5,827 nucleotides of DNA from Nitrospirota bacterium (GTDB taxonomy: Bacteria; Nitrospirota_A; Leptospirillia; Leptospirillales; Leptospirillaceae), in NCBI GenBank assembly GCA_027415455.1, contig DAIBSV010000119.1, forward strand, positions 1 through 5,827. The letters run 5' to 3'. Shown here piece by piece: positions 1,557 through 5,827 of this stretch (positions within the stretch are counted from its first letter, which is position 1; every line of letters begins with the position of its first letter). A model generated the notes under the pieces. The model saw only the letters and a list, made by a program, of their open reading frames with translations, had not been told where the DNA came from and made no database searches. The translations under genes were made by a program, and so were the position numbers.

Positions 1557-2064
1557 GGTCCTTCATGGGAAATACGAACCATTCGGTCCATAGCTCACCT
1601 CGGGTCCCCCTTGGTCTCCTTTCCCGCTGGCCTCTGGAAGAATGGCTATGAGCAAGTTTATCATCGCACGAGGCCATGCGCGCATATCTCGTTGCCGTCG
1701 CGCGAGTGTGCGAGATAACTCGTCGCACCTCATGATACCGGGGAGCGAGCGGGGGGTCCAAGTAATTTAACTTTGCTATATTCGTATCGTCTAGAAGGTT
1801 AGAAGCTAGCATGATACCTGCTTGCGGGCAATTGCCTCCGGCGCGATCCGATGACTAAGTACGTTGGCGCGTATCCGTCTAGATTACGGCAGGAAAACGC
1901 CCGATCGAGAGTTCGGACCACGGATGGCTCCTTTCCTCCCTGCGATCAGGATGCCGCTTCGCGCTCTTTAGGGAGGGTGCCCGGAAACTTCTAGCACAAA
2001 CTACTAGCGCACCGGTCCCCGGCGTCTCTTTCCAGTGGAACCCCCATTGTCTTGGGCCGAGCGA
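1557..2064. other. Intergenic stretch without a convincing gene
   Basis: About 508 bp separate the unidentified gene that ends at 2065 from the start of the ATPase gene. Short open frames exist, but none has convincing protein-like composition. I see no tRNA, CRISPR or insertion-sequence ends. An AT-rich block at 1761-1787 stands out from the GC-rich surroundings and could carry an archaeal TATA element. A second weak TATA-like string on the minus strand (GATAAACTT, 1655-1663) lies about 100 bp before the ATPase start and is the better placed of the two. A 7-bp inverted pair (CCTCCCT at 1935-1941 and AGGGAGG at 1970-1976, 28-base loop) is too weak to call a terminator. Nothing else is supportable by eye. 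Confidence 0.5.
1761..1787 (-). promoter_or_regulatory. AT-rich block, weak candidate promoter element upstream of the ATPase gene
   Basis: The strand facing the ATPase gene reads AAAGTTAAATTACTT within this block, an abrupt AT-rich island in GC-rich DNA. If it is a TATA box, transcription would start near 1735-1740 and leave a leader of roughly 180-200 bases, which is long for archaea. The alternative element at 1655-1663 would give a shorter leader. This is composition evidence only. Confidence 0.2.
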
Positions 2065-3096
2065 TCAGTAGCCGAGTTCGCAACGCCCCCTCAGCGGTTC
2101 CCTATCTTCAATCCGACGACCTACCCTCCTGGCTTCCCGTAGGAACCTTTCTCGCGCGGTGGCGACGTGCGTCTCGGCATCCTTGACCGCCCGCACCATC
2201 TCCTCCAGCTCACGGTCTTGGCTGAGCTCTCGGAAGACCCTCTCTAGGCCGGTTTCCATTGGCGATTCCGTGGGGGAAGGGGGCACCTCATGGGGCCTTG
2301 CGTTCTCCGTATCCTCCGATAGGCCGCTTCCCTGAGCGACCTCGGATGGCTCGAAAGCTCCACGAGCGAATGCCTTCAGTCTCTCCCACATGTAGAGGGC
2401 CATCTCGTCCGTCGGAGAACCCCCCGCTTCGGGGGATCCGATCGAGGCGGTCTCCGCGGGCGGCGTCCTCAGCCGAAGGAGTACTTCACGAATCTTTGCC
2501 AGTAAGAGGGCTCCTGCCTCTCCCCCGGGGGGACGCTGGACGCCCCCCCAATGGCGGAAGAACTCCCCCGCGAACGGAGCCTCGCCGGTGAGCCGGCGGC
2601 TTTCCGATAGAGCCACGTCGAGTTCGTTCTTGGCCGACTGGACCAACGGATAGGCGGCGATATGCTCGATCGCCTGTCGGACCGGCTCACGCGCATCGTC
2701 GATCCGCCCGGTAACTAGTGACTCAGGAGACAAGAACAACTTTCCCAACTCATCCGTGTGAGCCAGACGATCCGCCTGGGACGGAAGAGTCGAATCCTGT
2801 GGCTCACGCCTTCTCTGTTGCCGAAAAGTTCGACCGATGAGGGCTGCCAGCGCTCCCTCCCCTTCATCCTTCAACGACATCTTGCTTCGAATGAGCCCCT
2901 CGAACTCCTCCCGTTCCGTGTCGTCGGGAATCAGGCCGTCCATCCCCGCAAATCGGTTCTTGCGGGCCAGGATCAATCGGCGAGCGAGAGCCTTGGGGCT
3001 ATCGACTTTCCATACCTGTGCGAGGTGGAGAATAGTCTCCTGAACTCTTCGGAGCCTAGGCGTAGTATCGCTGCCTCGTCCCTCCTCCCACGACAT
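2065..3096 (-). CDS. Unidentified charged, mostly helical protein of 343 residues
   Basis: I do not recognise the family. The frame runs from an ATG at 3096 to a TAG at 2065-2067. An in-frame TGA at 3142-3144 and no other start codon in between fix the start, and there is no obvious Shine-Dalgarno sequence. Residues about 12-100 look helical and basic, with a segment around LRRVQETILHLAQVWKVDSP that might pack like a small DNA-binding or adaptor helix bundle. Residues 110-210 are also helical. Residues about 212-230 and 250-280 are Pro/Ser/Gly/Glu-rich and probably disordered linkers. Residues 282-335 (ERVFRELSQDRELEEMVRAV and onward) look like a charged amphipathic helix or coiled coil. There is no signal peptide or transmembrane segment, so it is likely cytoplasmic. 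Its sense codons and continuous helical pattern support a real gene. It is transcribed divergently from the surface-protein gene at 3452. Confidence 0.72.
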   Translation of the reverse strand: MSWEEGRGSDTTPRLRRVQETILHLAQVWKVDSPKALARRLILARKNRFAGMDGLIPDDTEREEFEGLIRSKMSLKDEGEGALAALIGRTFRQQRRREPQDSTLPSQADRLAHTDELGKLFLSPESLVTGRIDDAREPVRQAIEHIAAYPLVQSAKNELDVALSESRRLTGEAPFAGEFFRHWGGVQRPPGGEAGALLLAKIREVLLRLRTPPAETASIGSPEAGGSPTDEMALYMWERLKAFARGAFEPSEVAQGSGLSEDTENARPHEVPPSPTESPMETGLERVFRELSQDRELEEMVRAVKDAETHVATARERFLREARRVGRRIEDREPLRGRCELGY

Positions 3097-3170
3097 TTGT
3101 CTTCGTGTCGCGCGACATGAGTTCCGAGAGCGCCTTCTGGCTCACGCGACAATCCACCGAAAGTTTGACA

Positions 3171-3178
3171 CAATATTA
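3171..3178 (-). promoter_or_regulatory. Weak TATA-like element for the unidentified minus-strand gene
   Basis: Read on the minus strand, the sequence here is TAATATTG within GCTAATATTGTG, about 75 bases before the ATG at 3096. A start of transcription about 25 bases downstream would leave a leader of roughly 45-50 bases. It is the only AT-rich island before that gene. No B-recognition element is evident. Confidence 0.25.
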
Positions 3179-3374
3179 GCTGATGCAGGGTCTGCACGAA
3201 AGAGGCGGAGCCGCGACTCGCCAAATCGAAGCGAGTCTAGAAGTGCGTAGGGACCCACGACCGGGGTTACGATCGGGAGGGCTTACCCTGAGTCACGAGT
3301 TGCCACGTAGACAGTTTGGGCGTGAGGCGTTCCGAGACGGCATCACGCGCGTGCACCCTTCCCCTCGGCGCCAA

Positions 3375-3383
3375 GTTTTATAC
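3375..3383 (+). promoter_or_regulatory. Archaeal TATA-like box for the surface-protein gene
   Basis: The string GTTTTATAC closely matches the archaeal TATA-box pattern (TTTATA core) and stands in GC-rich DNA. It lies about 70 bases before the ATG at 3452. Transcription would be expected to begin near 3403-3410, leaving a leader of about 45 bases. AGGTAG at 3441-3446, just before the tandem ATG codons, could serve as a weak ribosome binding site. Confidence 0.5.
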
Positions 3384-3451
3384 GATGAGCTAGGACCTCG
3401 TGCGCTGGAGACGATTCCCCAGAGTCCTACCAATCGCTGCAGGTAGTTGCG

Positions 3452-5827
3452 ATGATGCTAGTCGGATGGAGTAAGGTGGGGGGCATTCCGCCAAGCGGTA
3501 CTGCCGCCATCCGCCGGAGCCGTTCGACCGCCGTCGCGGGCCGCACCGCAGTCTTAGTCCTCCTGTTGGTGGCTCTCTTCCTCCTCTCGAGCGTACTGGC
3601 TCCGATCAGACTTAGCCCAGGATCTAGCGCGACTGGAAGCGGAACTGCCATTCCGAGGGACGCCCTCGCGGTGACCGCTTCAGTTTCCTCTCCTTCCCGG
3701 GTGGGAAGCTCGAGCGGGTCGGCGGTTGTTTCCTTCGGCTCCACCGCGATGCCCGATTCGTCCTCTTCCAGCGGTGGCTCCCCCACCGAACGGAGTGGAC
3801 TTGCAGCTCAAGCCTCGGTAGATTCAACCCCCCTCGAGCGTCCTCTGCCCGCGTCACTGGCGTTTACGCCATTGCCTCCGCGTGCGTCATCCGTTGGGTT
3901 GCGGGCGGCACCCTCGACCGACCCTCCAGCGGTTGTCCCGATCACCATCGACAACTCACAAAACACGTCCACCGGGACGTACCAGCAGCTCCTCGCCGTA
4001 AACTCTTCGCTGTACTCTGCTTACATCAATAGCAACTGGACTAACGTGCGATTCCAGTACACGAACGGGGCCTCCATTCCGGCGTGGATCGAGGGGAACG
4101 CCAGTAACACCTCGGGGAACACGCCCGTGTGGCTTCGTCTTAATTCGATTCCCGCCGGGACGAGCGAGACGGTCTACATGCTCATCGATTCAAAGAGTTC
4201 CTTCGACCTCTCCCCCACGGGGCCGACGGGAGAGGCACCGCAGCTTTCTTCGTCATACGGAAAATTTGACAACGGCGCGAGCGTATTCGTCTTCTACGAC
4301 AATTTCGCCGGTACCACCCTGAGTACGACGAAGTGGCAAAAACCCATTGGGCTTGATGGCAGTGTTTCCGTGAGCAACGGAGCCACCTTTACGACGAATA
4401 CGCGTAAGGGGTACGTCTTCATCGTGGCTGCTACCAAGATAGCGTACCCCGCGATCACGGAGATGCTCTACGAGGGGGGAACCTCGGGTCTAACACCGCT
4501 CATCGGCGAGACGAAGAACAACAAGACGAGTTCGTGGGTTGACCTGTGCCCGGGTTATGAAACTACTTGGATTGTGAATAACGCAGACTCTAACGAATTG
4601 GTAGCGACTCCAAGTTGCACGGTCAACGTAGTAAGTGGTATTACTGCAATCCCCACTCCACCCAGCGACAGCATCCCGGGGGTCGGCTGGGTTGCCACGG
4701 GCAACGAACAGGTTTATCTAAATTACACGAACACGTACTCATCCCCGAACAGGTTGGTTTCCATTGCCAACTACTTTCCTTACGTAGGGGCCACGAACTA
4801 CACGGCCGGGTCCTTCACGATCCAATGGATCCGGGCTCGAGCGTACCCTCCGAACGGAGTGATGCCATCAGCGGCCTACGGGCCGGTGTTTGTGGGGGGG
4901 ACTCCCTCGGCGACTCCGAACCCGGTCGACTCGGGCCAGGCAACGACGATCTCGACGACGGCAGCGACGGGAGGGTCGGGGAGTTACACGTACGCTTGGT
5001 CGGGGTCGGTGCCGACGGGGTGCACGCTACCGAGTGGGACGAGCACGACCTCGTTCGGTTGCACGCCGAACTCGGGGACCCAAGGGACGTACACGATCAC
5101 GGTGACGTATGGGGACTCGAGCGGGAGCTCGGTGAATAACTCGTTCGCATTGACGGTGGACACGATGTTGAACGCCCCGGGGACTCCGACGGTGACGGTG
5201 AACCCCGTGGATGTAGGACAGCAGACAGTGCTGACGGCGACGGCGGCGACGGGAGGCTCGGGTTCGTACACGTATTCGTGGAGCGGGCTGCCGACGGGGT
5301 GCAGCAGTTCGAACACGTTGACACTGGATTGCACTCCGACGTCGGTGGGGTCTGGGACGTATACGATTACCGTCACGGCGACGGACGGGAACGGCCAGAC
5401 GGCGACGAGCGGTGCATTGACGTTGACGGTGGACCCGCTCGCACAGCTCGTGATCGCCACGCCATCGAACACGAGGGACTGGAGCGTTGCATCGGTGGAG
5501 AACCCCGTGCCGGCCACGGTGACCTCGGATCCGGCCGGGCCCTGCTCGGGACTCAACGCAATCGCGGGTGTCGTGACCGTGAAGGTGCCAGAAGCGACCT
5601 GTCCGGTCGACGCTGTCGCCGCTACCGACGGGCCGCTGGTACCCGTAGGGACCCGGAGCTGGCAGCTGAACTGCCCCGCCCCATCCGCGGTCGTGGAACC
5701 GCTCGCGCAGGAAGAGATCGATCGCCTCGGGGGAGCTGTCGGCGGTGAGGCGGAGTCGGGTGGGGGCGGCCCCCTTGGCGCTTTTCCGTTCCGGAACCTT
5801 CCAGACGGGCGGCTCCAGGAGAACGCG
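3452..5827 (+). CDS. Secreted DUF2341/lectin-like surface protein with PKD-like repeats, open to the right edge
   Basis: Tandem ATGs at 3452 and 3455 open a frame of 792 codons with no stop before the window end. An in-frame TGA at 3386-3388 bounds the start. Residues 21-31 are basic and 33-52 form a hydrophobic helix (VLVLLLVALFLLSSVL), so it is a Sec signal or membrane anchor. Residues about 53-163 are a Ser/Thr/Pro-rich stalk. Residues about 164-480 match the DUF2341 pattern followed by a lectin-like sandwich: VRFQYTNGASIPAWIEGN, then YDNFAGTTLSTTKWQ, ending WIRARAYPPNGVMPS. About nine N-glycosylation sequons and a cysteine pair (366, 389) fit an extracellular cell-wall or S-layer-associated role. 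Two PKD-like repeats follow (484-572 and 575-661). After about residue 661 (base 5436) the translation loses domain character and codon pattern, and the opposite strand reads as a real repeat protein. Residues 662-792 are therefore probably not genuine. The ligand is unknown. Confidence 0.85.
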   Translation, partial: MMLVGWSKVGGIPPSGTAAIRRSRSTAVAGRTAVLVLLLVALFLLSSVLAPIRLSPGSSATGSGTAIPRDALAVTASVSSPSRVGSSSGSAVVSFGSTAMPDSSSSSGGSPTERSGLAAQASVDSTPLERPLPASLAFTPLPPRASSVGLRAAPSTDPPAVVPITIDNSQNTSTGTYQQLLAVNSSLYSAYINSNWTNVRFQYTNGASIPAWIEGNASNTSGNTPVWLRLNSIPAGTSETVYMLIDSKSSFDLSPTGPTGEAPQLSSSYGKFDNGASVFVFYDNFAGTTLSTTKWQKPIGLDGSVSVSNGATFTTNTRKGYVFIVAATKIAYPAITEMLYEGGTSGLTPLIGETKNNKTSSWVDLCPGYETTWIVNNADSNELVATPSCTVNVVSGITAIPTPPSDSIPGVGWVATGNEQVYLNYTNTYSSPNRLVSIANYFPYVGATNYTAGSFTIQWIRARAYPPNGVMPSAAYGPVFVGGTPSATPNPVDSGQATTISTTAATGGSGSYTYAWSGSVPTGCTLPSGTSTTSFGCTPNSGTQGTYTITVTYGDSSGSSVNNSFALTVDTMLNAPGTPTVTVNPVDVGQQTVLTATAATGGSGSYTYSWSGLPTGCSSSNTLTLDCTPTSVGSGTYTITVTATDGNGQTATSGALTLTVDPLAQLVIATPSNTRDWSVASVENPVPATVTSDPAGPCSGLNAIAGVVTVKVPEATCPVDAVAATDGPLVPVGTRSWQLNCPAPSAVVEPLAQEEIDRLGGAVGGEAESGGGGPLGAFPFRNLPDGRLQENA
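4901..5436 (+). repeat. Two tandem PKD-like (Ig-fold) protein repeats of about 88 residues
   Basis: Unit 1 covers about 4901-5167 and unit 2 about 5174-5436. Shared landmarks in order are NPVDSGQ / NPVDVGQ, AATGGSGSYTY, W-S-G then PTGC, a second cysteine (FGCTP / LDCTP), GTYTITVT and a closing ALTVD / LTLTVD. The two conserved cysteines per unit could form a disulfide. The coding DNA uses ACG for Thr and TCG for Ser to an unusual degree compared with the preceding DUF2341 region. This fits an array that has spread by duplication. Such repeats usually act as extracellular spacers or adhesive modules. Confidence 0.8.
5428..5715 (-). CDS. Fragment encoding one IPT/TIG-type surface-protein repeat, antisense to the PKD gene
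   Basis: The minus strand reads as a textbook IPT/TIG repeat. From right to left it gives SCASGSTTADGAGQFSC, then QLRVPTGTSGPSVAATA, TGQVASGTFTVTTPAIAL, SPEQGPAGSEVTVAGTGFS, and LQSLVFDGVAITSCASGST. The SPxxGPxGSxVTVxGTGF core is diagnostic of this Ig-like fold in extracellular proteins. The two SCASGS copies are 88 codons apart (5709 and 5445), so this is one complete repeat period. No start codon suited to a secreted protein is present. Below 5428 the frame simply continues as antisense of the PKD repeats, so the gene is broken at both ends. I infer a displaced piece of a related surface-protein gene, either by genomic rearrangement or by contig misassembly. The alternative, chance resemblance of antisense DNA to a TIG domain over this length, seems unlikely. 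Confidence 0.65.
5429..5710 (+). repeat. 18-bp direct repeats bounding a 264-bp TIG repeat segment
   Basis: The motif gtgga(c/a)ccgctcgc(a/g)cag occurs at 5429-5446 and again at 5693-5710. Sixteen of 18 bases are identical and the offset is exactly 264 bp (88 codons). On the minus strand each copy encodes the CASGS(T) part of the TIG repeat. Similarity between the two places ends outside the motif on both sides, and both apparent changes of coding frame or strand occur at or within a few bases of a copy. Confidence 0.7.
5710..5827 (-). CDS. Possible gene fragment at the right edge, in a different minus-strand frame
   Basis: From base 5827 leftwards, the frame beginning at the last base reads VLLEPPVWKVPERKSAKG, then APTRLRLTADSSPEAIDL and FLRERF. 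Its third codon positions are almost all G or C, and the peptide is a balanced mix of charged and hydrophobic residues. The frame used by the neighbouring TIG repeat gives only Pro/Arg-rich low-complexity sequence here. The sense frame thus appears to shift near 5710, at the second copy of the 18-bp repeat. I do not recognise the protein, and under 40 residues is too little for a firm call. It might be the upstream part of the TIG gene with a frameshift, or an unrelated gene joined here. Confidence 0.3.

Follow-up and report, generated by a model that had tools for sequence, protein, structure and literature searches.

The stretch of DNA analysed here, referred to below as the window (5,827 bases, GC 62%), raises the question of why the coding strand appears to flip inside a surface-protein gene close to the end of the sequence. 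An earlier note, made from the letters alone, had described PKD-like coding on the plus strand that gives way to IPT/TIG coding on the minus strand, and had considered a template switch, an assembly join and an inverted exchange of domain arrays that might generate diversity. Based on comparison with related genomes, we consider the apparent strand flip to be a chimeric join that arose in amplification, library preparation or assembly, probably close to where the assembled contig ends, and assign to this reading a probability of roughly 0.8. The features of the window are collected in Table 1.

Table 1. Features of the window, with positions, strand and the evidence for each.
Feature	Position	Strand	Evidence
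KaiC-like ATPase, 439 aa	237-1556	minus	PF06745, 129.8 bits
343-aa protein without clear family	2065-3096	minus	ORF list and profile search
Surface-protein gene, 5' part with signal/N-terminal segment, DUF2341 head and two PKD-like repeats, cut off at 5437	3452-5437	plus	PF10102, PF00801; signal segment by eye
PKD stalk, match ending exactly at the junction	4898-5437	plus	93% DNA, gap-free, to G225:C1:125163-125702
Junction 1, 7-bp overlap GGACCCG present both in the PKD relative G225 and in the IPT relative G309	5431-5437		base-by-base comparison
Inverted IPT/TIG fragment, about one repeat period	5431-5718	minus	81% DNA over 288 bp, zero gaps, to G309:C240:2166-2453; closest match found
Stretch of about 24 bp between second and third breaks, matching neither side	5719-5742		
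Mid-gene fragment of IS701-type (DDE_5) transposase; window ends inside it	5743-5827	minus	P0128 residues 221-248

Two genes lie upstream of the surface-protein gene. The KaiC-like ATPase, in which about 200 residues precede the KaiC domain, is 94% identical in the related genome G225, and the next-best of the 300 genomes searched reaches at most 48%. These 300 were drawn from a larger class, and a match at E 1e-20 was obtained in 45 of them; distant near-full-length relatives of the ATPase occur in genomes G085 (45%) and G147 (44%). The gene for the 343-aa neighbour is present in two of seven genomes checked, namely G225 and G147, and was not found in a further one of the seven, G309.

The plus-strand frame begins at 3452 and, with 792 aa, stays open to the end of the window. 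Its product meets the gathering score for DUF2341 (PF10102, 41.4 bits, cut-off 23.4) and contains two PKD/Ig-like repeats, the last of which ends near residue 661. The scores for PKD (PF00801, 25.8 bits, cut-off 23.5) and He_PIG (PF05345, 35.2 bits), together with the 93% DNA match to G225, bear out the earlier description of PKD-like coding on the plus strand up to 5437. Among 120 listed of 232 matches, the named best ones belong mostly to Thermoplasmata and other archaea. DUF2341-PKD surface proteins of these groups (L002, L005 and L145, compared by eye) have a DUF2341 head and a PKD/Ig-like stalk, as does the window gene; in contrast to them, the window gene breaks off ahead of the IPT array (found in G225 and G309) and of the membrane anchor (found in G309).

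The comparison with G225 locates the cut. Contig C1 of this genome aligns with the window over 15-1997 and 2052-3834 at 88% DNA identity and again over the PKD stalk, of which positions 4898-5161 match C1 a second time (89%), against the next repeat. Over 5381-5437 all 57 bases are identical (40/40 over 5398-5437), and the two sequences then diverge. Past the junction point, G225 continues on the same strand and in frame from LTLTVDP into ALTAGTPSATPNPVDSG..., a third PKD repeat, followed by several IPT-like repeats (LTLTPSSGPSGVTVTA...), and its contig ends inside the gene; the roughly 1.7 kb of gene beyond the end of the second PKD repeat does not reach the kind of IPT repeat seen in the window piece. 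As the match with G225 extends to 5437 and the G225 gene continues beyond it without changing strand, the plus gene of the window is, judged by sequence, real up to 5437 and cut at that position. The earlier note had held that an intact homologue reading through in the plus frame would mark the gene as genuine; G225 does read on and supports the gene, but its continuation differs from what follows 5437 in the window. Separately, at window positions 1997-2052 the contig of G225 has about 2.2 kb extra (G225:C1:120495-122680), with a frame (L106:9961-10479) weakly like a DDE_3 transposase (17.8 bits, below the cut-off of 28.6).

Beyond the junction, the minus-strand piece at 5440-5709 scores 22.3 bits for PF01833 (gathering cut-off 20.9) and, within its longer frame, 19.9 bits, which is below the cut-off. 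In the minus frame 74 of 96 residues are identical to G309 (68 of 95 in the plus frame), and the claim of IPT/TIG coding on the minus strand from 5440 upward can be upheld. The G309 match lies inside a 1839-aa frame (L140:3-5522) that contains, on one strand and in this order, an IPT-like array, two IPT repeats of the window kind, ESGLP-type repeats followed by a membrane anchor (by eye for repeats and anchor). Its IPT-like array resembles that of G225 (74% DNA over 1042 positions); in G225 itself, the window kind of IPT repeat finds weak matches, at 42-45% identity, in short stretches of the IPT-like array. By these similarities the G309 gene appears to be the same kind of gene, with synteny lending no support, as the 343-aa neighbour was not found there. 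The IPT piece, as its alignment indicates, is a later part of the same kind of gene, turned round, and it probably derives from the organism's own gene.

Which strand codes in 5431-5718 is decided by homology, since codon statistics and substitution positions fail to separate the two: a codon-usage scan scores the plus and minus frames alike across this stretch, and 29 of 54 differences fall at third positions in both frames. The earlier note had also taken the missing stops at the junction as a telling sign. However, genes of this kind commonly have open antisense frames. In those of G309 and G225, 41-67% of codons lie in open stretches of at least 130 codons in two of the three antisense frames and none in the third; the plus gene of the window has 21-23% in two of its antisense frames and 0% in the remaining one. 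Long antisense open frames being normal here, the stop-free junction is evidence of nothing. Two further observations on the IPT piece were set aside. A 38-bp match (84%) between G309:C238 and 5692-5729 was read and taken as chance. Both ends of the piece lie, by eye, in the same motif of the repeat, which might be taken for design; no weight was given to this, because such closeness of phase is fairly often expected in a repeat of about 264 bp.

At the junction, GGACCCG belongs to both sides, since identity with G225 runs to 5437 and the match with G309 starts at 5431. The overlap proposed earlier, gtggaccc, thus holds in that a short overlap exists, but for its first two letters only the relative on the PKD side gives support. 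A DNA search with the IPT piece covered 103 genomes of the family, 40 of them with some match; as only two candidates were scored per genome, the absence of an alignment across 5431-5437 is weak in that search, and the junction was therefore sought separately as a pattern. Allowing up to 2 mismatches, the 20-base pattern occurs at 7 places in 6 of the 103 family genomes (the pattern in reverse, used as control, occurs at 1 place). When all 7 were read, none proved to be the junction: the flanking sequence agrees with that of the window in 3-12 of 28 positions to one side and in 8-13 of 38 to the other. Viral contigs contained 0 exact copies of the 24-base junction, phages searched with 5300-5827 gave zero matches, and viral contigs searched with the plus gene gave 6 pattern stretches and 0 relatives.

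The minus-strand IPT stretch, although present as described earlier, lasts only to 5718, and the breaks and the transposase fragment in another frame that come after it had been missed. Among the matches listed, none passes 5720. The next 24 bp or so align neither with the IPT relative nor with the transposase relatives, and have no match among the fetched loci. The last 85 bases of the window, on the minus strand and in a frame other than that of the IPT piece, read RVLLEPPVWKVPERKSAKGAAPTRLRLT, which is identical at 24 of 28 residues to P0128, the sole match at E<=10 among 8 candidates. P0128 is a transposase assigned by its source to Leptospirillum sp. Group IV 'UBA BS', with DDE_5 (PF13546) at 13-260 of its 415 residues (157 bits); the 45-residue tail alone is without a Pfam match. 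Several plasmid relatives of P0128 are annotated as IS701 family, whose transposases carry DDE_5; compared with these, the window tail comprises only about 28 codons, without an IS end or a full gene. The break lies in the interior of the transposase gene and of its DDE_5 match and so does not represent the end of an IS.

We searched 395 genomes of the phylum to which the genome of L079 belongs (L079 is titled Nitrospirae bacterium) and found P0128 matches at E 1e-20 or better in 11 of them. The two best copies are 90% and 75% identical to P0128; at the DNA level, they match the tail with 86% identity (85 bases) and 72% identity (81 bases). The match starts sharply at 5743, and past this point their proteins continue LTETPRTVAEIAK... 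and LAEKPQTVAEIAK..., quite different from LTADSSPEAIDLF in the window. In turn, 19 of the 103 archaeal family genomes contain P0128 matches at E 1e-8 or better, which are 29-35% identical when full-length and up to 50% in short pieces. Among the genomes searched, the transposase piece is by these alignments close only to bacterial copies. Searches with P0128 found nothing in viral contigs or in two further genomes. Weak matches of the tail protein, in three of six genomes at E 1 (best 0.097) and in 19 of the 103 family genomes at E 0.1 (best 0.004), were left unused.

A mechanism consistent with these breaks can be outlined. A strand ending in GGACCCG would have been joined to an IPT/TIG repeat that genes of this kind carry on the same strand at a more downstream position, which makes the piece read backwards; within 310 bp a second switch, via about 24 bp, would have led into the interior of a Leptospirillum-type IS701 transposase gene. 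A single break with an overlap could by itself be a genomic inversion. Yet, two or three unrelated breaks in about 310 bp, each inside a gene and with a last piece whose close matches, in the genomes searched, are all bacterial, argue for a chimera. The template-switch or assembly-join reading, already raised in the earlier note, is thereby strengthened: it is in line with the overlap, the orientation inverted with respect to relatives, the nearby breaks and the foreign-looking transposase fragment. The position of the breaks at the window end fits a contig end, which the end of the window probably is, and the G225 contig likewise ends inside the same repeat array.

We infer that amplification, library preparation or assembly produced the joins. 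Commonly used assemblers work with k-mers longer than the 7-bp overlap, so that plain repeat collapse would be insufficient for junction 1 by itself. Template switching in the library and an assembler joining loose ends are other routes to chimeras. For amplification with phi29, Lasken and Stockwell (2007; PMC1855051) describe chimeras with inverted orientation, an intervening deletion and 2-21 nt of complementarity; 406 of 475 were inverted, 337 of those joined segments less than 10 kb apart, and the chimeras formed mostly within one molecule. The window shares with them the inverted piece and the intervening deletion, judged against the single-strand order in G225 (PKD, IPT-like array) and G309 (IPT-like array, IPT repeat), as well as the short overlap, whose 7 bp, judged from the relatives, fall within the described range. 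It differs in that its last piece seemingly comes from another organism, and the use of phi29 is an assumption for this sample. In amplified metagenomes such chimeras are, according to PMC10945365, rare, mostly inverted and derived from the same DNA, which argues against the phi29 route for the transposase piece unless the archaeon carries the IS.

The chimeric reading has to be weighed against a real but unprogrammed rearrangement, in which a microhomology-mediated inversion or deletion broke the surface gene beside a decayed IS701 fragment and left it truncated. Repeat-rich genes do rearrange, and the neighbourhood may accept IS elements, as the extra 2.2 kb of G225 with its weakly DDE_3-like frame suggests; the P0128 matches in the 19 family genomes also speak for it, distant as they are (29-50% identity, highest only in short pieces). 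We nevertheless regard this explanation as unlikely, given that the end of the window has two or three unrelated breaks in some 310 bp, that the transposase fragment is broken off within its gene and has its close counterparts, in the genomes searched, among bacterial copies only, and that the junction pattern was not found in the 103 family genomes.

Highly improbable, in our view, is a real and recurrent inversion in the archaeon between the motif GGTGGACCCG at the PKD end and its inverse in the IPT repeat, associated with an IS and leaving the stalk truncated or reshuffled in part of the population; of this motif only GGACCCG is supported by a relative. Least probable of all is a programmed inversion, by an invertase or in the manner of a shufflon, in which domains of the surface protein are exchanged for diversity: the gene is modular and its relatives differ in the head domain, but the window has no inverted repeat pair of at least 16 nt touching 5420-5450 (among exact ones with a start at 5416-5445, for which lengths of 8-12 were tried, the longest has 10 nt and pairs with 3711; the far end of any inversion would lie outside the window) and no recombinase among its five tested frames, the antisense-joined piece would encode no IPT domain, and the inverted stretch enters the transposase fragment without returning to the gene. 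Bacterial phase-variable invertible loci, as far as the sources consulted describe them, likewise switch strand inside a surface gene, whereas in the window neither sites nor a recombinase nor an alternative orientation was seen. Among the titles returned by a literature search on invertible surface genes and archaea, none names archaea. The inverted domain-array exchange suggested earlier as a diversity mechanism consequently finds no positive support, with G225 uninverted, the junction not found in the 103 genomes and no recombinase in the five frames.

A separate result concerns the head of the surface protein. The window and G225 share the N-terminal segment (131 residues, 79% identical in protein) and the PKD stalk (188 residues, 89%). 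Between them, positions 3834-4898 of the window encode the DUF2341 head, while the counterpart in G225 is a different head of 224 residues (G225:C1:124471-125163; L106 about 12472-13164), and the two heads have only a 9-residue match (E 8.6). Relatives of the G225-type head, at 31-34% identity, are found in G147 (L119 784-1335), before an IPT-like array (by eye), and also in the Thaumarchaeota locus L004 (4004-4663 and 9276-9869), which carries DUF2341. The frame is open at both ends of the exchange. From these alignments, an in-frame exchange of heads on a conserved stalk looks real and is better supported than the strand-flip result. The exchange suggests a modular arrangement in which different heads sit on a common stalk, a recognised route of surface-protein evolution.

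Should the fragment at 5743-5827 truly be part of the archaeal genome, it would represent transfer between bacteria and archaea, and a real inversion would suggest that stalk domains are shuffled by inversion in this archaeal group. As an artefact, the join is a warning against reading a strand flip with a short overlap in a repeat-rich surface gene as a diversity mechanism ahead of a look at the reads.
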